Of a DNA stretch of 64,000 nt, positions 15,943 through 61,429 are shown one piece after another (position 1 is the stretch's first letter; each line of letters starts with the position of its first letter). The DNA comes from Spirochaeta lutea (GTDB lineage Bacteria; Spirochaetota; Spirochaetia; DSM-27196; Salinispiraceae). The translations under genes and the position numbers were made by a program. The notes beneath the pieces are model-generated. The model saw only the letters and a program-made list of their open reading frames with translations. It was not told the DNA's origin and did no database searches. The stretch spans positions 124,001-188,000 of the forward strand of contig NZ_JNUP01000023.1 of the NCBI RefSeq assembly GCF_000758165.1, given 5' to 3'.

Positions 15943-16090
15943 CGGGGTACTCCGGTATCCACTGCTCCGGGTTCCGGAAGCAGCCCAAACATCCCGCCCC
16001 AAAGAGAACAGAATGCCACCATCGGATGTGCAGTACTTGAGGTATTCGATCAGCCGATGGTGGTGTGTCTATCATCTGGAAATCAATTTC

Positions 16091-16195
16091 TAGCGCGCAA
16101 AAGGTTGTAAACGACCCTAGATATGGCTGAGCAGCCTCTATCTCCACCCAGGGGTGGTGTCGCCGGGGTGCAATGGTACAACCTTTTACGCACAA
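16091..16195 (+). repeat. 105-bp palindromic intergenic repeat, copy R2
   Basis: Begins TAGCGCGCAAAAGGTTGTAA and ends GTACAACCTTTTACGCACAA, giving a near-perfect terminal inverted repeat. The centre has CCACCCAGGGGTGG where other copies have CACCCATGGGTG. It lies between the converging sugar dehydrogenase and ilvD genes. Confidence 0.9.
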
Positions 16196-16216
16196 TAAAA
16201 TCAATCGATTGGCAGG

Positions 16217-57279: not shown

Positions 57280-58047
57280 CTAGAGTTGGAAGAGCCGTTT
57301 TGCGTTGAGGAAGGTCTGTTCAGCGAATTCCTCGGGATCCAGCCCGCGAAGGGATGCTAGGTATTCTGCGGTGGAATGAAGATAGCTCGGCCGGTTTCTC
57401 TTGCCCCGGTACTCAGCCGGTACCATGAAGGGGCTCTCGGACTCAATAACAAGCTGTTCAATGGGAATGTTCTTAGCAGTTTCGTGGAGATTTCTAGCAT
57501 TTCTATAGGTGGCATTTCCGGCAAAAGAAATGTACATACCAAGATCAATTGCTTTCTTCGCAAACTCCCAGTCCTCGGAATAACAGTGCAGAACCCCACC
57601 TCTAGTCGGTCTCCGGGTGGAAAGAATATCCAAGATATCCTTGCCTGCATCACGGTTATGGATAATAACAGGCAGATTGTACTTATCAGCAATTTCGAGT
57701 TGGCGAATAAATAATTCGATCTGGGAGTTTTTATTACCAAACTTACGGTAGTAGTCCAGGCCTGTTTCACCGATGGCAACAACACGTTCCTGCTTCACAC
57801 CGGAATCAATTTTCGCTTCCCAGTCAATCCCGGGATTTTGAACCTCCGAAGGAGAGACTCCCACGGCGTGATAGACATGCGTCGCAGTACGTAGATTTTC
57901 ATACACCACGAAGAAATCGTGGAGGTTATTGCAAATGCTTATTATACCCTCTACCCCTTGCTGCCGGGCTTCTTGAGTAATAATTAACTGTTCAATCGGG
58001 TCTTCGTGAATCAACCCGATATGGGCGTGAGTATCAAATAGTTTCAT
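57280..58047 (-). CDS. TatD-family metal-dependent DNase
   Basis: A 255-residue amidohydrolase-like nuclease, ATG at 58047. Metal motifs DTHAHIG, GETGLDYY, HNRDA and HCYSED are present. The last metal Asp, normally in ETDSP, reads ESESPF, so Asp is replaced by Glu. Whether this alters activity is unknown. It is transcribed ahead of purF with 242 bases between. Confidence 0.88.
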   Translation of the reverse strand: MKLFDTHAHIGLIHEDPIEQLIITQEARQQGVEGIISICNNLHDFFVVYENLRTATHVYHAVGVSPSEVQNPGIDWEAKIDSGVKQERVVAIGETGLDYYRKFGNKNSQIELFIRQLEIADKYNLPVIIHNRDAGKDILDILSTRRPTRGGVLHCYSEDWEFAKKAIDLGMYISFAGNATYRNARNLHETAKNIPIEQLVIESESPFMVPAEYRGKRNRPSYLHSTAEYLASLRGLDPEEFAEQTFLNAKRLFQL

Positions 58048-58142
58048 GGCTTTTTCCAAATCTGAAAGGATATACAAAAGACATTAGCATGCCGATACTA
58101 TAACGTCAACAGAATGTTCCATTTGACAATTTTAATTTATTC

Positions 58143-59162
58143 ATGGTAGGGTTTTACAGAATGGCCGGAAAAAGAGGGAAATCTTCCAGTAAGAAACGAC
58201 ACGTATTTCTCAGCCTCAAGGAGGCACTGGGAAAGCTGTTTTCTCATAAATTTACCGTGATGGTCATTCCCCACTCAGAAAAAAAGGTTGTAAATCTTCA
58301 GATTAATACCCTCTTCTTTACTTTTTCCTGCCTGACCCTTGTATCCCTCATCATCGGATTCGTAGTTCTTTCTACAGATTACGCGGCATCTCAGCAGGAG
58401 ACCCTGGTGGAAACCGTGAACTTTGAAACTGCTCAAGCTAACCTGGATTCTGTGGTAGATGAGGTTTCAGAGTTGATAAAGGTATATAGGGTTTTTGAAA
58501 ATGCAATGCAGTCAACCCTAGGGGAATTAAACATCGCAACCCGAGAGGATGAAGGTTTTTCTGGATCCGGTGATATTTCGAGTATTCTGGATTTAGAAGA
58601 GGTGCAGGGTAGCACCCCTCGGGAGGTGTTTGATGTACGACGCCTCAGAAGTTCACTCTCCGATGCCATTGAGCCTGTCAATCAGATCGCGGATATTTTG
58701 TCTGCCGAGAAGCAACTCCTCTCAGATATTCCTACCCTTTGGCCGGTGGTCGGTGGTAGAAACGCACTTACCATGGAATTCGGTCCAAATGAGCATCCCA
58801 TCCGTGATGAATGGTACCTTCATAAGGGGGCGGATATTGCGGGACCAATAGGTCTTCCCATCGTGGCAGCGGCAAACGGCAAGGTCGTGGAGTCTAGATT
58901 GGATCAGATTTCCGGTTACGGAAATATGATAATCATTGAACATAAGTACGGGTTCCGTACCCGGTATAGCCATATGAGTAGAAGGTTGGTAAGTGAAGGT
59001 CAGGAGGTGTACCAGGGGCAGCAGATTGGTCTGCTTGGCAACACGGGATTATCTTCGGGACCGCATCTGGACTTTCAGGTTATGCTTGGAACTGAGGTTC
59101 TAGATCCCACAACCTTCCTTAGTATTAAAAATGATTTTGCCCGATGGCTCGGTAACAGGTAA
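58143..59162 (+). CDS. M23-family (LytM-like) peptidase with one membrane anchor
   Basis: A 339-residue protein (an inner ATG at 58161 is possible). A membrane helix (about 57-78) is followed by a coiled-coil stretch (about 85-190) and a LytM domain (from about 205). His227 and Asp231 (HKGAD) match HxxxD; His277 (SHM) and His308 are present. The normal HLH metal motif reads H308-L-D310, so a metal ligand is replaced by Asp. It would cut cell-wall cross-links in the periplasm, or act as a regulator if inactive. It precedes a bactofilin by 10 bases, a pairing known for cell-shape control. Confidence 0.9.
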   Translation: MVGFYRMAGKRGKSSSKKRHVFLSLKEALGKLFSHKFTVMVIPHSEKKVVNLQINTLFFTFSCLTLVSLIIGFVVLSTDYAASQQETLVETVNFETAQANLDSVVDEVSELIKVYRVFENAMQSTLGELNIATREDEGFSGSGDISSILDLEEVQGSTPREVFDVRRLRSSLSDAIEPVNQIADILSAEKQLLSDIPTLWPVVGGRNALTMEFGPNEHPIRDEWYLHKGADIAGPIGLPIVAAANGKVVESRLDQISGYGNMIIIEHKYGFRTRYSHMSRRLVSEGQEVYQGQQIGLLGNTGLSSGPHLDFQVMLGTEVLDPTTFLSIKNDFARWLGNR

Positions 59163-59171
59163 GTCCCCCAC

Positions 59172-59651
59172 ATGTCTGATGTTATTCCCGAAGAACAGAT
59201 TGTAAATTCGATTATCGGACCCGGTAGTAAGTTCAAGGGCGATATAGTTGTCCATGGACTCATACGGATTGATGGTGATTTTAGCGGTACCATAAAAACC
59301 AAGGGTAAGATTCTGGTGGGCCAGTACGGGAGAGTGGATGGCGCCCTGTCGGGACGTATTGTGGTGGTTGGTGGTATAGTACGGGGTAATATTTACGCTG
59401 AAGGGAAGGTAATTATTCTCGCTGACTCTGTAGTGATCGGAAATATCCATTCCCCCAGAATCGTTGTGGAAGAGACAGGCATACTGCATGGTCATTTGGT
59501 CATCTCGGGTGTCCGTAGGTCTGATACACCGGCGTATCCTAAAAGCAAGGCTCAATCCGATGCCAATAAAAAAAGCCGGTCAATGGCAACATCTGAAGAA
59601 AAAAAGCATGCTGAAAAACGGCGGTGGAAGGTTTTTTCACCCCGGGAGTAG
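59172..59651 (+). CDS. Bactofilin
   Basis: A 159-residue bactofilin. The central domain (about 12-115) is a right-handed beta-helix with repeated short strands (IRIDGDFSGTIKTKGKILVG, GRIVVVGGIVRGNIYAEGKV). The charged tail (about 120-159) is disordered. Bactofilins polymerise into filaments and position peptidoglycan enzymes; the M23 peptidase gene next to it is the expected partner. No strong ribosome site is seen, so translation may be coupled to the peptidase gene. Confidence 0.93.
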   Translation: MSDVIPEEQIVNSIIGPGSKFKGDIVVHGLIRIDGDFSGTIKTKGKILVGQYGRVDGALSGRIVVVGGIVRGNIYAEGKVIILADSVVIGNIHSPRIVVEETGILHGHLVISGVRRSDTPAYPKSKAQSDANKKSRSMATSEEKKHAEKRRWKVFSPRE

Positions 59652-59822
59652 AAGTAATTACCAAGTCTGGTAAGGGGTTCCGCGTTCAACCGGGTCCCGC
59701 GGTCGAAAGATGTAACCATGCATCGATTGAGCCGACGGGTTCTGGGGGGCGTACTTTTCCCACTCTTGCGCATTCCACTTGCATATAAATTTTCAATTGG
59801 CTTAGTGATCAAAAACTTTTCT

Positions 59823-59927
59823 TAGTGCGCAAAAGGTTGTAAACTACGCCAGATATAGCGGAGCAACCGAGAATTCGACCCATGGGTGGTGTCGTCGGGG
59901 TGAAGAGTTACAACCTTTTGCGTGCTA
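59823..59927 (+). repeat. 105-bp palindromic intergenic repeat, copy R3
   Basis: Begins TAGTGCGCAAAAGGTTGTAA and ends TTACAACCTTTTGCGTGCTA, an almost perfect terminal inverted repeat of 20 bp. The centre carries GACCCATGGGTGG. Unlike most copies, it lies between two co-directional genes, bactofilin and yaaR. Confidence 0.92.
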
Positions 59928-59955
59928 TAACCGGTTTTCCGGGAGGGTGTTTGTC

Positions 59956-60483
59956 ATGGAGAGAATTGATGGGGGTCCTGGGCAGTTTTTATTCCGGCCA
60001 GATGTACCCCATGAGACGGAAAAGAAGACAAAAAAGAAGGGTGAGACGCGGAAAAAGTCGGGTTTTTTTTCCCTCGTTTCTCGTCCGGACGAGCATGAAT
60101 TAGAATCCTTTGATTTATTACCTTCGGAATTAAAAGCTTCCATACAGGCAGCTCCTTCTCTTGATGCTTGGCTTTCTGGGACAATCGATACCATTCATAC
60201 CCATGGCGATGCCTTGGCAAAATATCCAAGCAGAGAAAATCTCGCCCTGTACCGGAGGGCAGTCTCCGATTTTTTGAAGGTAATTGCAAAACGTACCTAC
60301 CGTGCGGAAGATAATCTTGGTCATCGATCCTTGGTCGACCAAAAAAAATACACCGTTATTAAGCTCGTTGATCAGAGGCTAGAAAAACTTGCACTTGGTA
60401 TTCTCCAAGAACAGCGTGGGAATCTTCAGATATTAGCTCAGATCGAAGAGATAAACGGAATGCTCTTTGATCTTCTCCAGTGA
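59956..60483 (+). CDS. YaaR family (DUF327) protein
   Basis: A 175-residue helical protein. ATG 59956 has GGGAGGG nine bases upstream; an alternative GTG at 59947 is too close to it. The N-terminal 45 residues are lysine-rich and disordered; the rest matches the YaaR/DUF327 helical family (YRRAVSDFLKVIAKRTY, LVDQRLEKLALGIL). In Bacillus yaaR lies beside yaaT (ricT), exactly as here. Molecular function is unknown. Confidence 0.84.
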   Translation: MERIDGGPGQFLFRPDVPHETEKKTKKKGETRKKSGFFSLVSRPDEHELESFDLLPSELKASIQAAPSLDAWLSGTIDTIHTHGDALAKYPSRENLALYRRAVSDFLKVIAKRTYRAEDNLGHRSLVDQKKYTVIKLVDQRLEKLALGILQEQRGNLQILAQIEEINGMLFDLLQ

Positions 60484-60547
60484 AACATTGATTTTTATCA
60501 ACAATCCTCTATAATCAAATTTACAGAAACCAAACCAGGAGAAGCGG

Positions 60548-61429
60548 ATGGAAGAACGATGTGGTCCATGTGCTTCACTATCAGAGAATCAGCAAAAAGC
60601 AGTCAACTGTTGGCTTGCAAAGCTTGATCATACAAGTGAAGGGTTCGTATTGCGCCCCGAGGATGGGATAGAGTTTTCCCGGGGTGTTAGAATAGTTGTG
60701 CAAAGTAAATATGGTCTAGATATCGGTACGATTCTCGGCCCGGCTTACTGTGACCGAAACAACGAAGAATCCCTAACCTTTGTACGGATTGCTAGTGAAC
60801 AGGATATTAAAGAGTATGAGTCTTTCCAAGAGAAAGAGGAGAATGCAGAAGAGGTATTTCGAAAGAAGGTTGAAGAACATAATCTAGAAATGAAGCTCGT
60901 CTCCGCGCATTATTTGTTGGGTGAGCATAAAATCTTATTCTTTTTTACCTCTGAACGGAGAGTTGATTTCAGGAATTTGGTGCGTGACCTCGTTGGTATT
61001 TTCCATGCGAGAATTGAACTTCGTCAGATTGGAGTCCGTGATGAGTCCAGGATGGTGGGGGGGCGCGGAGTGTGCGGGCGCTGTCTCTGCTGTAATCAGG
61101 TCTCGGATAATTTGCAGCCTGTATCTATCAAGATGGCAAAGATTCAAAGCTTGTCCCTCAACTCAACCAAAATTTCCGGCCCCTGTGGCAGATTGTTATG
61201 CTGTCTAGCCTACGAATACGATGTTTATCAAGAAGAGCGTCGAGGATTGCCGAATGAAGGGCAGTGGTTATACTCCGGGGAGTTTCGTTACCGAATAGGT
61301 GAGGTGAACATCCTTGCAAAACGATTACTCGTATTTAGCGGAGATGGAAGATGTATTTCTGTACCAACTTCGGAGGTGAAGTATGATACACAAAAGAGAC
61401 AATGGATGAGCATCGGTTTATTGGAGTAG
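60548..61429 (+). CDS. PSP1-domain protein, RicT/YaaT-like
   Basis: A 293-residue protein with the PSP1 domain (about 45-150) and two cysteine clusters, CGRCLCC and CGRLLCC, near 180-225 that bind iron-sulfur in RicT. In Bacillus RicT is part of the RicA-RicF-RicT complex that guides RNase Y. No ricA or ricF is here. ATG follows CAGGAG. Confidence 0.9.
   Translation: MEERCGPCASLSENQQKAVNCWLAKLDHTSEGFVLRPEDGIEFSRGVRIVVQSKYGLDIGTILGPAYCDRNNEESLTFVRIASEQDIKEYESFQEKEENAEEVFRKKVEEHNLEMKLVSAHYLLGEHKILFFFTSERRVDFRNLVRDLVGIFHARIELRQIGVRDESRMVGGRGVCGRCLCCNQVSDNLQPVSIKMAKIQSLSLNSTKISGPCGRLLCCLAYEYDVYQEERRGLPNEGQWLYSGEFRYRIGEVNILAKRLLVFSGDGRCISVPTSEVKYDTQKRQWMSIGLLE

Follow-up and report, generated by a model that had tools for sequence, protein, structure and literature searches.

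The stretch analysed here, hereafter called the window, comprises 64,000 nucleotides from the genome of Spirochaeta lutea (contig NZ_JNUP01000023.1). At positions 58143 to 59651, it contains a gene for a membrane protein with an M23/LytM peptidase domain, directly followed by a bactofilin gene. The M23 protein carries an aspartate in place of the second histidine of the HxH motif, and this H-x-D form recurs in relatives of the same order. We denote each site by its residues at positions 227, 231, 277, 308 and 310, e.g., HDHHH for the complete form. The features of the locus are listed below with the evidence for each.

58143..59162, + strand: M23/LytM membrane protein of 339 amino acids, HDHHD form (H227, D231, H277, H308, D310); open reading frame, Pfam
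58248..58307, + strand: cytoplasmic beta-hairpin predicted at residues 36-55, candidate motif for docking to the bactofilin; AlphaFold2 strands 36-41 and 50-55, conservation by group
58308..58526, + strand: transmembrane segment and coiled-coil helix, residues 56-128; AlphaFold2 model, hydrophobic at ~57-77 from the sequence
58620..58727, + strand: second periplasmic helix, residues 160-195; AlphaFold2 model
58818..59108, + strand: Peptidase_M23 domain, residues 226-322; Pfam PF01551, E 6.3e-30, fold matching Csd1/Csd2, ShyA and LytM
59064..59078, + strand: H308-L-D310-F-Q312, altered HxH motif with adjoining E312-to-Q change; codons, alignment
59172..59651, + strand: bactofilin of 159 amino acids; Pfam PF04519, E 2.3e-22

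The stop codon of the M23 gene and the ATG of the bactofilin gene are separated by 9 bases (59163-59171), not by the 10 given in an earlier note on this DNA, and either M1 or M7 (58161) may be the start of the M23 protein. With 103.7 bits against PF01551 and 79.5 bits against PF04519 (curated Pfam cut-offs of 28.7 and 27.9, respectively), the two products belong to the M23 family by fold and to the bactofilins. In an AlphaFold2 model of the M23 protein based on 48 sequences (mean predicted local distance difference test score, pLDDT, of 80.6; hairpin blocks at 75-82), a helix (residues 16-33) and the hairpin (36-55) precede the hydrophobic segment, followed by helices at 56-128 and 160-195 and the M23 domain. 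The modelled succession of cytoplasmic hairpin, transmembrane helix, coiled coil and M23 domain is that of LmdC-type proteins, and judged by this model, the protein is a spirochaetal bactofilin-partner M23 protein of LmdC-like build. Among PDB entries, Foldseek ranked the Csd1-Csd2 complex (5j1l) first for the model at E 1.3e-12, jointly with ShyA, and VIA-align over residues ~190-330 gave Z scores of 22.4 for ShyA and 20.2 for Csd1-Csd2, with further matches to DipM, EnvC and LytM.

According to two papers, the zinc of M23 peptidases is held by two histidines and one aspartate, i.e., the HxxxD pair and the second histidine of HxH, while the first histidine of HxH and an earlier histidine activate the water molecule (PMC9662197, PMC5053510). 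Following the structural convention of the family, position 310 is that of the third zinc ligand (H252 of Csd1), and H277 and H308 are the water-activating histidines. The HxxxD motif is present as H227 (CAT, 58821-58823) and D231 (GAT, 58833-58835), and both H277 (CAT, 58971-58973) and H308 (CAT, 59064-59066) are in place. The earlier note had claimed the replacement of one metal ligand, with the rest of the active site in place, and this holds: the second histidine of HxH is D310 (GAC, 59070-59072), followed by Q312 (CAG, 59076-59078). The protein thus differs from LmdC-type enzymes, in which all zinc ligands are conserved, and shares with degenerate LytM regulators the substitution of at least one zinc ligand. 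When solved H-x-D structures of M23 proteins were searched for by sequence, all five matches listed had histidine at the aligned position.

The loss of a zinc ligand speaks for a pseudoenzyme, a protein that binds no metal and cuts nothing, serving instead as a scaffold, tethered to the bactofilin, by which another hydrolase is positioned or activated, comparable to Csd2 with Csd1 or to DipM and EnvC. LytM domains with substituted signature residues were zinc-free in crystals, as reported in PMC8416486, and the best structural match of our model is a complex whose Csd2 subunit lacks metal and pairs with Csd1 (PMC5053510). Another explanation would be chance drift in a single genome or an assembly error, without any meaning, given that one base change suffices to turn a histidine into an aspartate codon. 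However, ten more genomes (loci L011, L012, L013, L016, L017, L019, L021, L022, L024 and L052) have an HDHHD site with an adjoining bactofilin gene, so D310 is not an assembly slip, and the changes at 310 and 312 occur together in several families, including a genome assembled as one contig (G002). This recurrence refutes the explanation, which we consider practically negligible.

To place the site among relatives, full-length homologues were drawn from 60 related genomes and from the class, and 143 rows were aligned, skipping four repeat loci (G, L and f labels stand for genomes, loci and families, G000 being the window genome, whose closest named matches all belong to Spirochaetota). Outside the order of the window genome, all 67 rows apart from G059 showed the complete HDHHH site (65 proteins, one tandem pair having been fetched twice); G059, which belongs to another order, has an HDHHD protein with an adjoining bactofilin gene as its only copy. 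The order itself is represented by 46 genomes, 44 of which gave a match at E 1e-33 or better. Its bactofilin-linked copies were of the HDHHD form in 10 rows (11 with G059) and further decayed in 28, e.g., to SEHYD, HQHHD, HDHSY, NRHQG or HVHGD, while the copies without an adjacent bactofilin gene were HDHHH in 34 rows, one of which is cut before the last motif. Most genomes of the order possess a second full-length copy without a bactofilin gene, with a complete site and a worn docking hairpin. Family f4 is reversed, its bactofilin-linked copies being complete (2 rows) and its copy without bactofilin HDHHD (1 row). The latter (L056 in G006) retains E312 and a full hairpin, and the linked copy of that genome is intact. 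Outside the order, three genomes contain two intact full-length copies (L115 and L132 in G063, L131 in G116, L133 in G082); those of G063 lie in tandem ahead of the bactofilin gene.

An overlapping set of 80 named loci contained 58 HDHHH, 8 HDHHD and 14 decayed sites, among the last that of Alkalispirochaeta alkalica (HVHGD). At the DNA level, a GPHLD[FY][EQ] pattern occurred in 4 of 296 genomes of the phylum (G000, G002, G059 and one with a sensor-kinase-like, non-M23 protein, as read from its sequence), compared to 234 of 296 for the H-x-H pattern; the H-x-D pattern is strict and overlooks copies with other neighbouring residues (AHLD, THLD, DFI). The earlier note would have been contradicted by ordinary zinc peptidase activity along with a common occurrence of HxD in the family, and HxD proved not to be common. 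H-x-D is a feature common to this order and not of spirochaetes generally.

These distributions also bear on the idea that the protein is an ordinary zinc endopeptidase with LmdC-like function, in which aspartate stands in for histidine with little effect. Aspartate is able to ligate zinc, and all other conserved positions are kept. Against this stand the histidine kept in all 67 rows from outside the order apart from G059, the accompanying change at position 312, which suggests a remodelled site, and the literature: we found no report of an H-x-D M23 protein, nor of one with shown activity, in the open-licence PMC literature. We therefore rate this explanation as improbable. Nor did we find any account of decayed spirochaetal bactofilin partners in this literature.

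The H-x-D protein has no full-length companion in G059 and in seven members of the order, the window genome among them. A profile built from 18 second copies found no further full-length protein in G000, G002, G023, G033, G028, G039, G036 or G059, meeting there only the M23 domains of other proteins beyond the H-x-D copy, whereas the controls G001 and G026 each yielded their second one. For the window genome (96% complete), neither protein nor profile search revealed a second full-length copy, i.e., no Csd1-Csd2-like pair, while eight other M23-domain proteins are present. G002, G059 and G028 are likewise 99%, 96% and 90% complete.

To assess constraint, changes were counted by the Fitch method on a tree of 48 bactofilin-linked rows from which the site columns were omitted, with classes set by copy number and not by residues. 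H227, D231, H277 and H308 did not change once over 4.22 branch units of single-copy lineages, compared to 28 changes over 12.54 units where a second copy is present (binomial P = 0.0003, or P = 0.01 once G059 with its long branch and the incomplete G033 are excluded); four changes on mixed branches were left uncounted, and the rows of G003, G043 and f4, being of unknown class or reversed, were not used. In a phylogeny-free Fisher test on 38 of the order's 46 genomes, retention of the four residues went with the presence of a single copy (P 0.0003; P 0.00015 for genomes at least 85% complete); the counts were tallied by hand, and the P values are optimistic, the genomes being related. Omitted from it were G006 and G013 (f4), G030 (fragment), G032 and G034 (no match), and G022, G027 and G040 (linked copy not found). 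The rest of the domain behaved similarly: retention at 29 other near-invariant M23 positions was 97.0% for single H-x-D copies and 97.2% for outside homologues, vs. 91.0% for decayed copies. Y225 was present in all 11 bactofilin-linked HDHHD copies, but in 10 of 28 decayed ones. Position 312 was Q in all eight single copies, but E in all 56 outside copies and all 33 second copies that could be read there, suggesting from the alignment that the site was remodelled along with D310.

Because the four residues are kept where no other full-length copy can cover for the protein, a working site is favoured, and we lean slightly towards an H-x-D metal site functioning with altered coordination over a dead, Csd2-like scaffold, at what we judge to be just short of an even chance. 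Several observations weigh against it. Some single-copy genomes are incomplete (G033 63%, G039 82%, G036 86%, G023 88%), and G003 (57% complete) and G043 (76%) hold single decayed copies, a counter pattern if these are truly single. The four residues also persist in three H-x-D copies despite an intact second copy (G026, G044 and G031, the second copy of the last being cut at a contig end), which means that the constraint does not strictly require solitude. D310 itself is kept in 11 of 28 copies that have lost other site residues, so the aspartate is not kept only for metal. An independent-pairs test never reversed direction but comprised three supported pairs with a median P of 0.25, and a related test of bactofilin location against an intact site gave three pairs for and one against (f4), which is not significant. 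Finally, catalysis is the only one assumed here among several possible functions of the groove.

The pseudoenzyme explanation gains from the same survey, since repeated decay of the site in relatives favours a regulator, which the earlier note had offered beside a different metal: 28 bactofilin-linked copies have lost more residues, while the 34 copies without bactofilin are intact as far as readable. The partner to be activated would be the intact second copy in relatives, and in the window genome another M23 protein or an amidase. Contrary to it, neither the two ligands left nor the two catalytic histidines ever changed in genomes with this copy as their sole full-length one, and searches of the window genome revealed no full-length partner, although they did reveal eight other M23-domain proteins. 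We regard it as a serious contender of somewhat under even probability.

The history of the change is less simple than a single ancient split into a D-form or decayed and an intact lineage, which was rejected on a full-length tree of 46 rows (p-AU, approximately unbiased test, 4.7e-5), from which long-branched and near-duplicate rows had been removed beforehand. On this tree, the intact second copies of f3 and f8 were placed, weakly, among the D-form copies. Testing the bactofilin-linked copies as one clade yielded p 0.0245 for f8 and p 0.248 for f3, and trees of the N-terminal part and the M23 domain disagree. A balanced tree of 39 rows requires at least five H/D changes at residue 310, while one basal H-to-D change accounts for the D state on a tree of the bactofilin-linked copies alone. 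As read from these trees, second copies either originated on several occasions, accompanied by D/H changes in both directions, or the copies were mixed by gene conversion. Because the clade tests are weak and the domain trees disagree, gene conversion, repeated duplication and D-to-H reversal are each compatible with the data.

The two kinds of copies also differ in the candidate docking hairpin. Eight conserved hairpin positions (T38, M40, P43, H44, S45, E46, N51, F52) had a mean retention of 0.84 in the bactofilin-linked copies of the order and G059, f4 excluded, vs. 0.59 in second copies (Mann-Whitney P = 2.7e-7, uncorrected for kinship), and H44 was present in 37 of 37 readable linked copies but only 18 of 32 readable second copies. 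This correlation would fit a division of labour in which the linked copy keeps docking and the second copy keeps cutting.

Around the pair, the gene order at 57280-61429 is TatD (opposite strand), M23, bactofilin, DUF327 (domain of unknown function) and a RicT/PSP1-like gene. The bactofilin and DUF327 families occurred in all 19 bactofilin-linked loci examined (18 of the order and G059) and the next family in 15 of 19. A promoter scan returned 5 sites vs. 5.6 expected, i.e., nothing beyond chance. Two more bactofilin genes are present in the window genome, one about 4 kb past the window end (G000:C21:192177-192470) and one elsewhere (G000:C67:9588-9881). A repeat of ~105 bp lies between the bactofilin and DUF327 genes (59823-59930) and again at ~16090-16196 and ~946-1052. 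It ends in 20-bp terminal inverted repeats (TAGTGCGCAAAAGGTTGTAA / TTACAACCTTTTGCGCACTA), and the 18-mer GTGCGCAAAAGGTTGTAA occurred 152 + 160 times genome-wide with up to 2 mismatches and never when read backwards, which may correspond to 150 repeat copies. In 22 aligned copies, the ends were nearly invariant and the middle variable, with at least two types; a comparison with Rfam gave no real match, and the repeat looks like a miniature inverted-repeat transposable element (MITE) or a REP-like (repetitive extragenic palindromic) element.

The analysis itself shows the architecture (as a model), the gene linkage, the composition and distribution of the sites, and the pattern of constraint. 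Returning to the favoured metal site with altered coordination, we infer bactofilin binding, metal binding and activity of the M23 protein in the following scheme. The bactofilin polymer probably holds the protein at chosen sites of the wall via the hairpin, as judged from LmdC. Early in the order, the third zinc ligand would have changed from histidine to aspartate, and Glu312 to Gln or Ile. Where the H-x-D copy stands alone, the other two ligands and both water-activating histidines would have stayed under selection, and therefore a metal is most likely still bound there, although in a changed arrangement. The metal may be held by H227, D231 and D310, perhaps aided by H277 and H308 as in the non-canonical zinc states of Csd1. 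In such a state, the zinc of Csd1 is held by Asp173, His219, His250 and His252 (PMC5053510), so catalytic histidines can help as ligands. The outcome would be a weak, conditional or altered endopeptidase activity. Where an intact second copy without bactofilin exists, the linked site may have relaxed and decayed, and docking and cutting would therefore be divided between two proteins.

The full combination is more doubtful: we consider it rather unlikely that H-x-D is a functional one-histidine, two-carboxylate metal site, that these spirochaetes have no other such site for wall cutting held by a bactofilin, and that docking and cutting were split in sister families. To our knowledge, a one-histidine, two-carboxylate metal site would be new for the M23 family, and H-x-D is in any case an unusual metal-site change in a well-studied fold. 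Bactofilins recruit M23 endopeptidases for cell shape, and the question is whether cutting by the M23 domain or its mere placement matters. Beside the same bactofilin gene, H-x-D and mostly lost sites occur within the order and complete sites in sister orders; because these natural variants exist, the question is testable by comparison. If the H-x-D site is functional, the order would represent a natural series from a complete enzyme via a one-ligand switch to a dead scaffold.

The earlier note had also proposed a cell-shape module, which is well supported, as Spirochaetia in general retain the gene pair and the literature describes M23-bactofilin pairs as a morphogenetic module (PMC10945521, PMC13393453). 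According to PMC10945521, the LmdC proteins of Hyphomonas neptunium and Rhodospirillum rubrum are active DD-endopeptidases whose cytoplasmic hairpin binds and recruits the bactofilin BacA. The window locus resembles this system in the adjoining M23 and bactofilin genes and in the order of hairpin, transmembrane helix, coiled coil and M23 domain, but LmdC has all zinc ligands and proven activity, whereas the window protein has aspartate at the third ligand; this comparison was by description and not by sequence. Borrelia burgdorferi shows the same spirochaetal arrangement, its M23 gene bb0246 directly preceding the bactofilin gene bbbG (PMC13393453), yet the two copies examined of f26, a family that is Borrelia-like by guess, have complete sites (L135 and L152). 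Csd1-Csd2 of Helicobacter pylori is likewise a shape-determining M23 pair of an active and a degenerate member, with the bactofilin CcmA in the pathway. Csd2, however, has E165 and K246 where each motif should begin with histidine, while the ligand altered in the window protein is intact there (PMC5053510), and no second full-length copy was found in the window genome. EnvC, NlpD and DipM share substitutions at zinc-ligand positions of the LytM domain, but they activate amidases or other autolysins, and the window protein keeps four of five site residues. While the M23-bactofilin pair is known as a module, the survey of site variants across the order is new, and the residue change is real and shared. 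The locus belongs to a genuine variant, spread across the order, of a module already known for cell shape.
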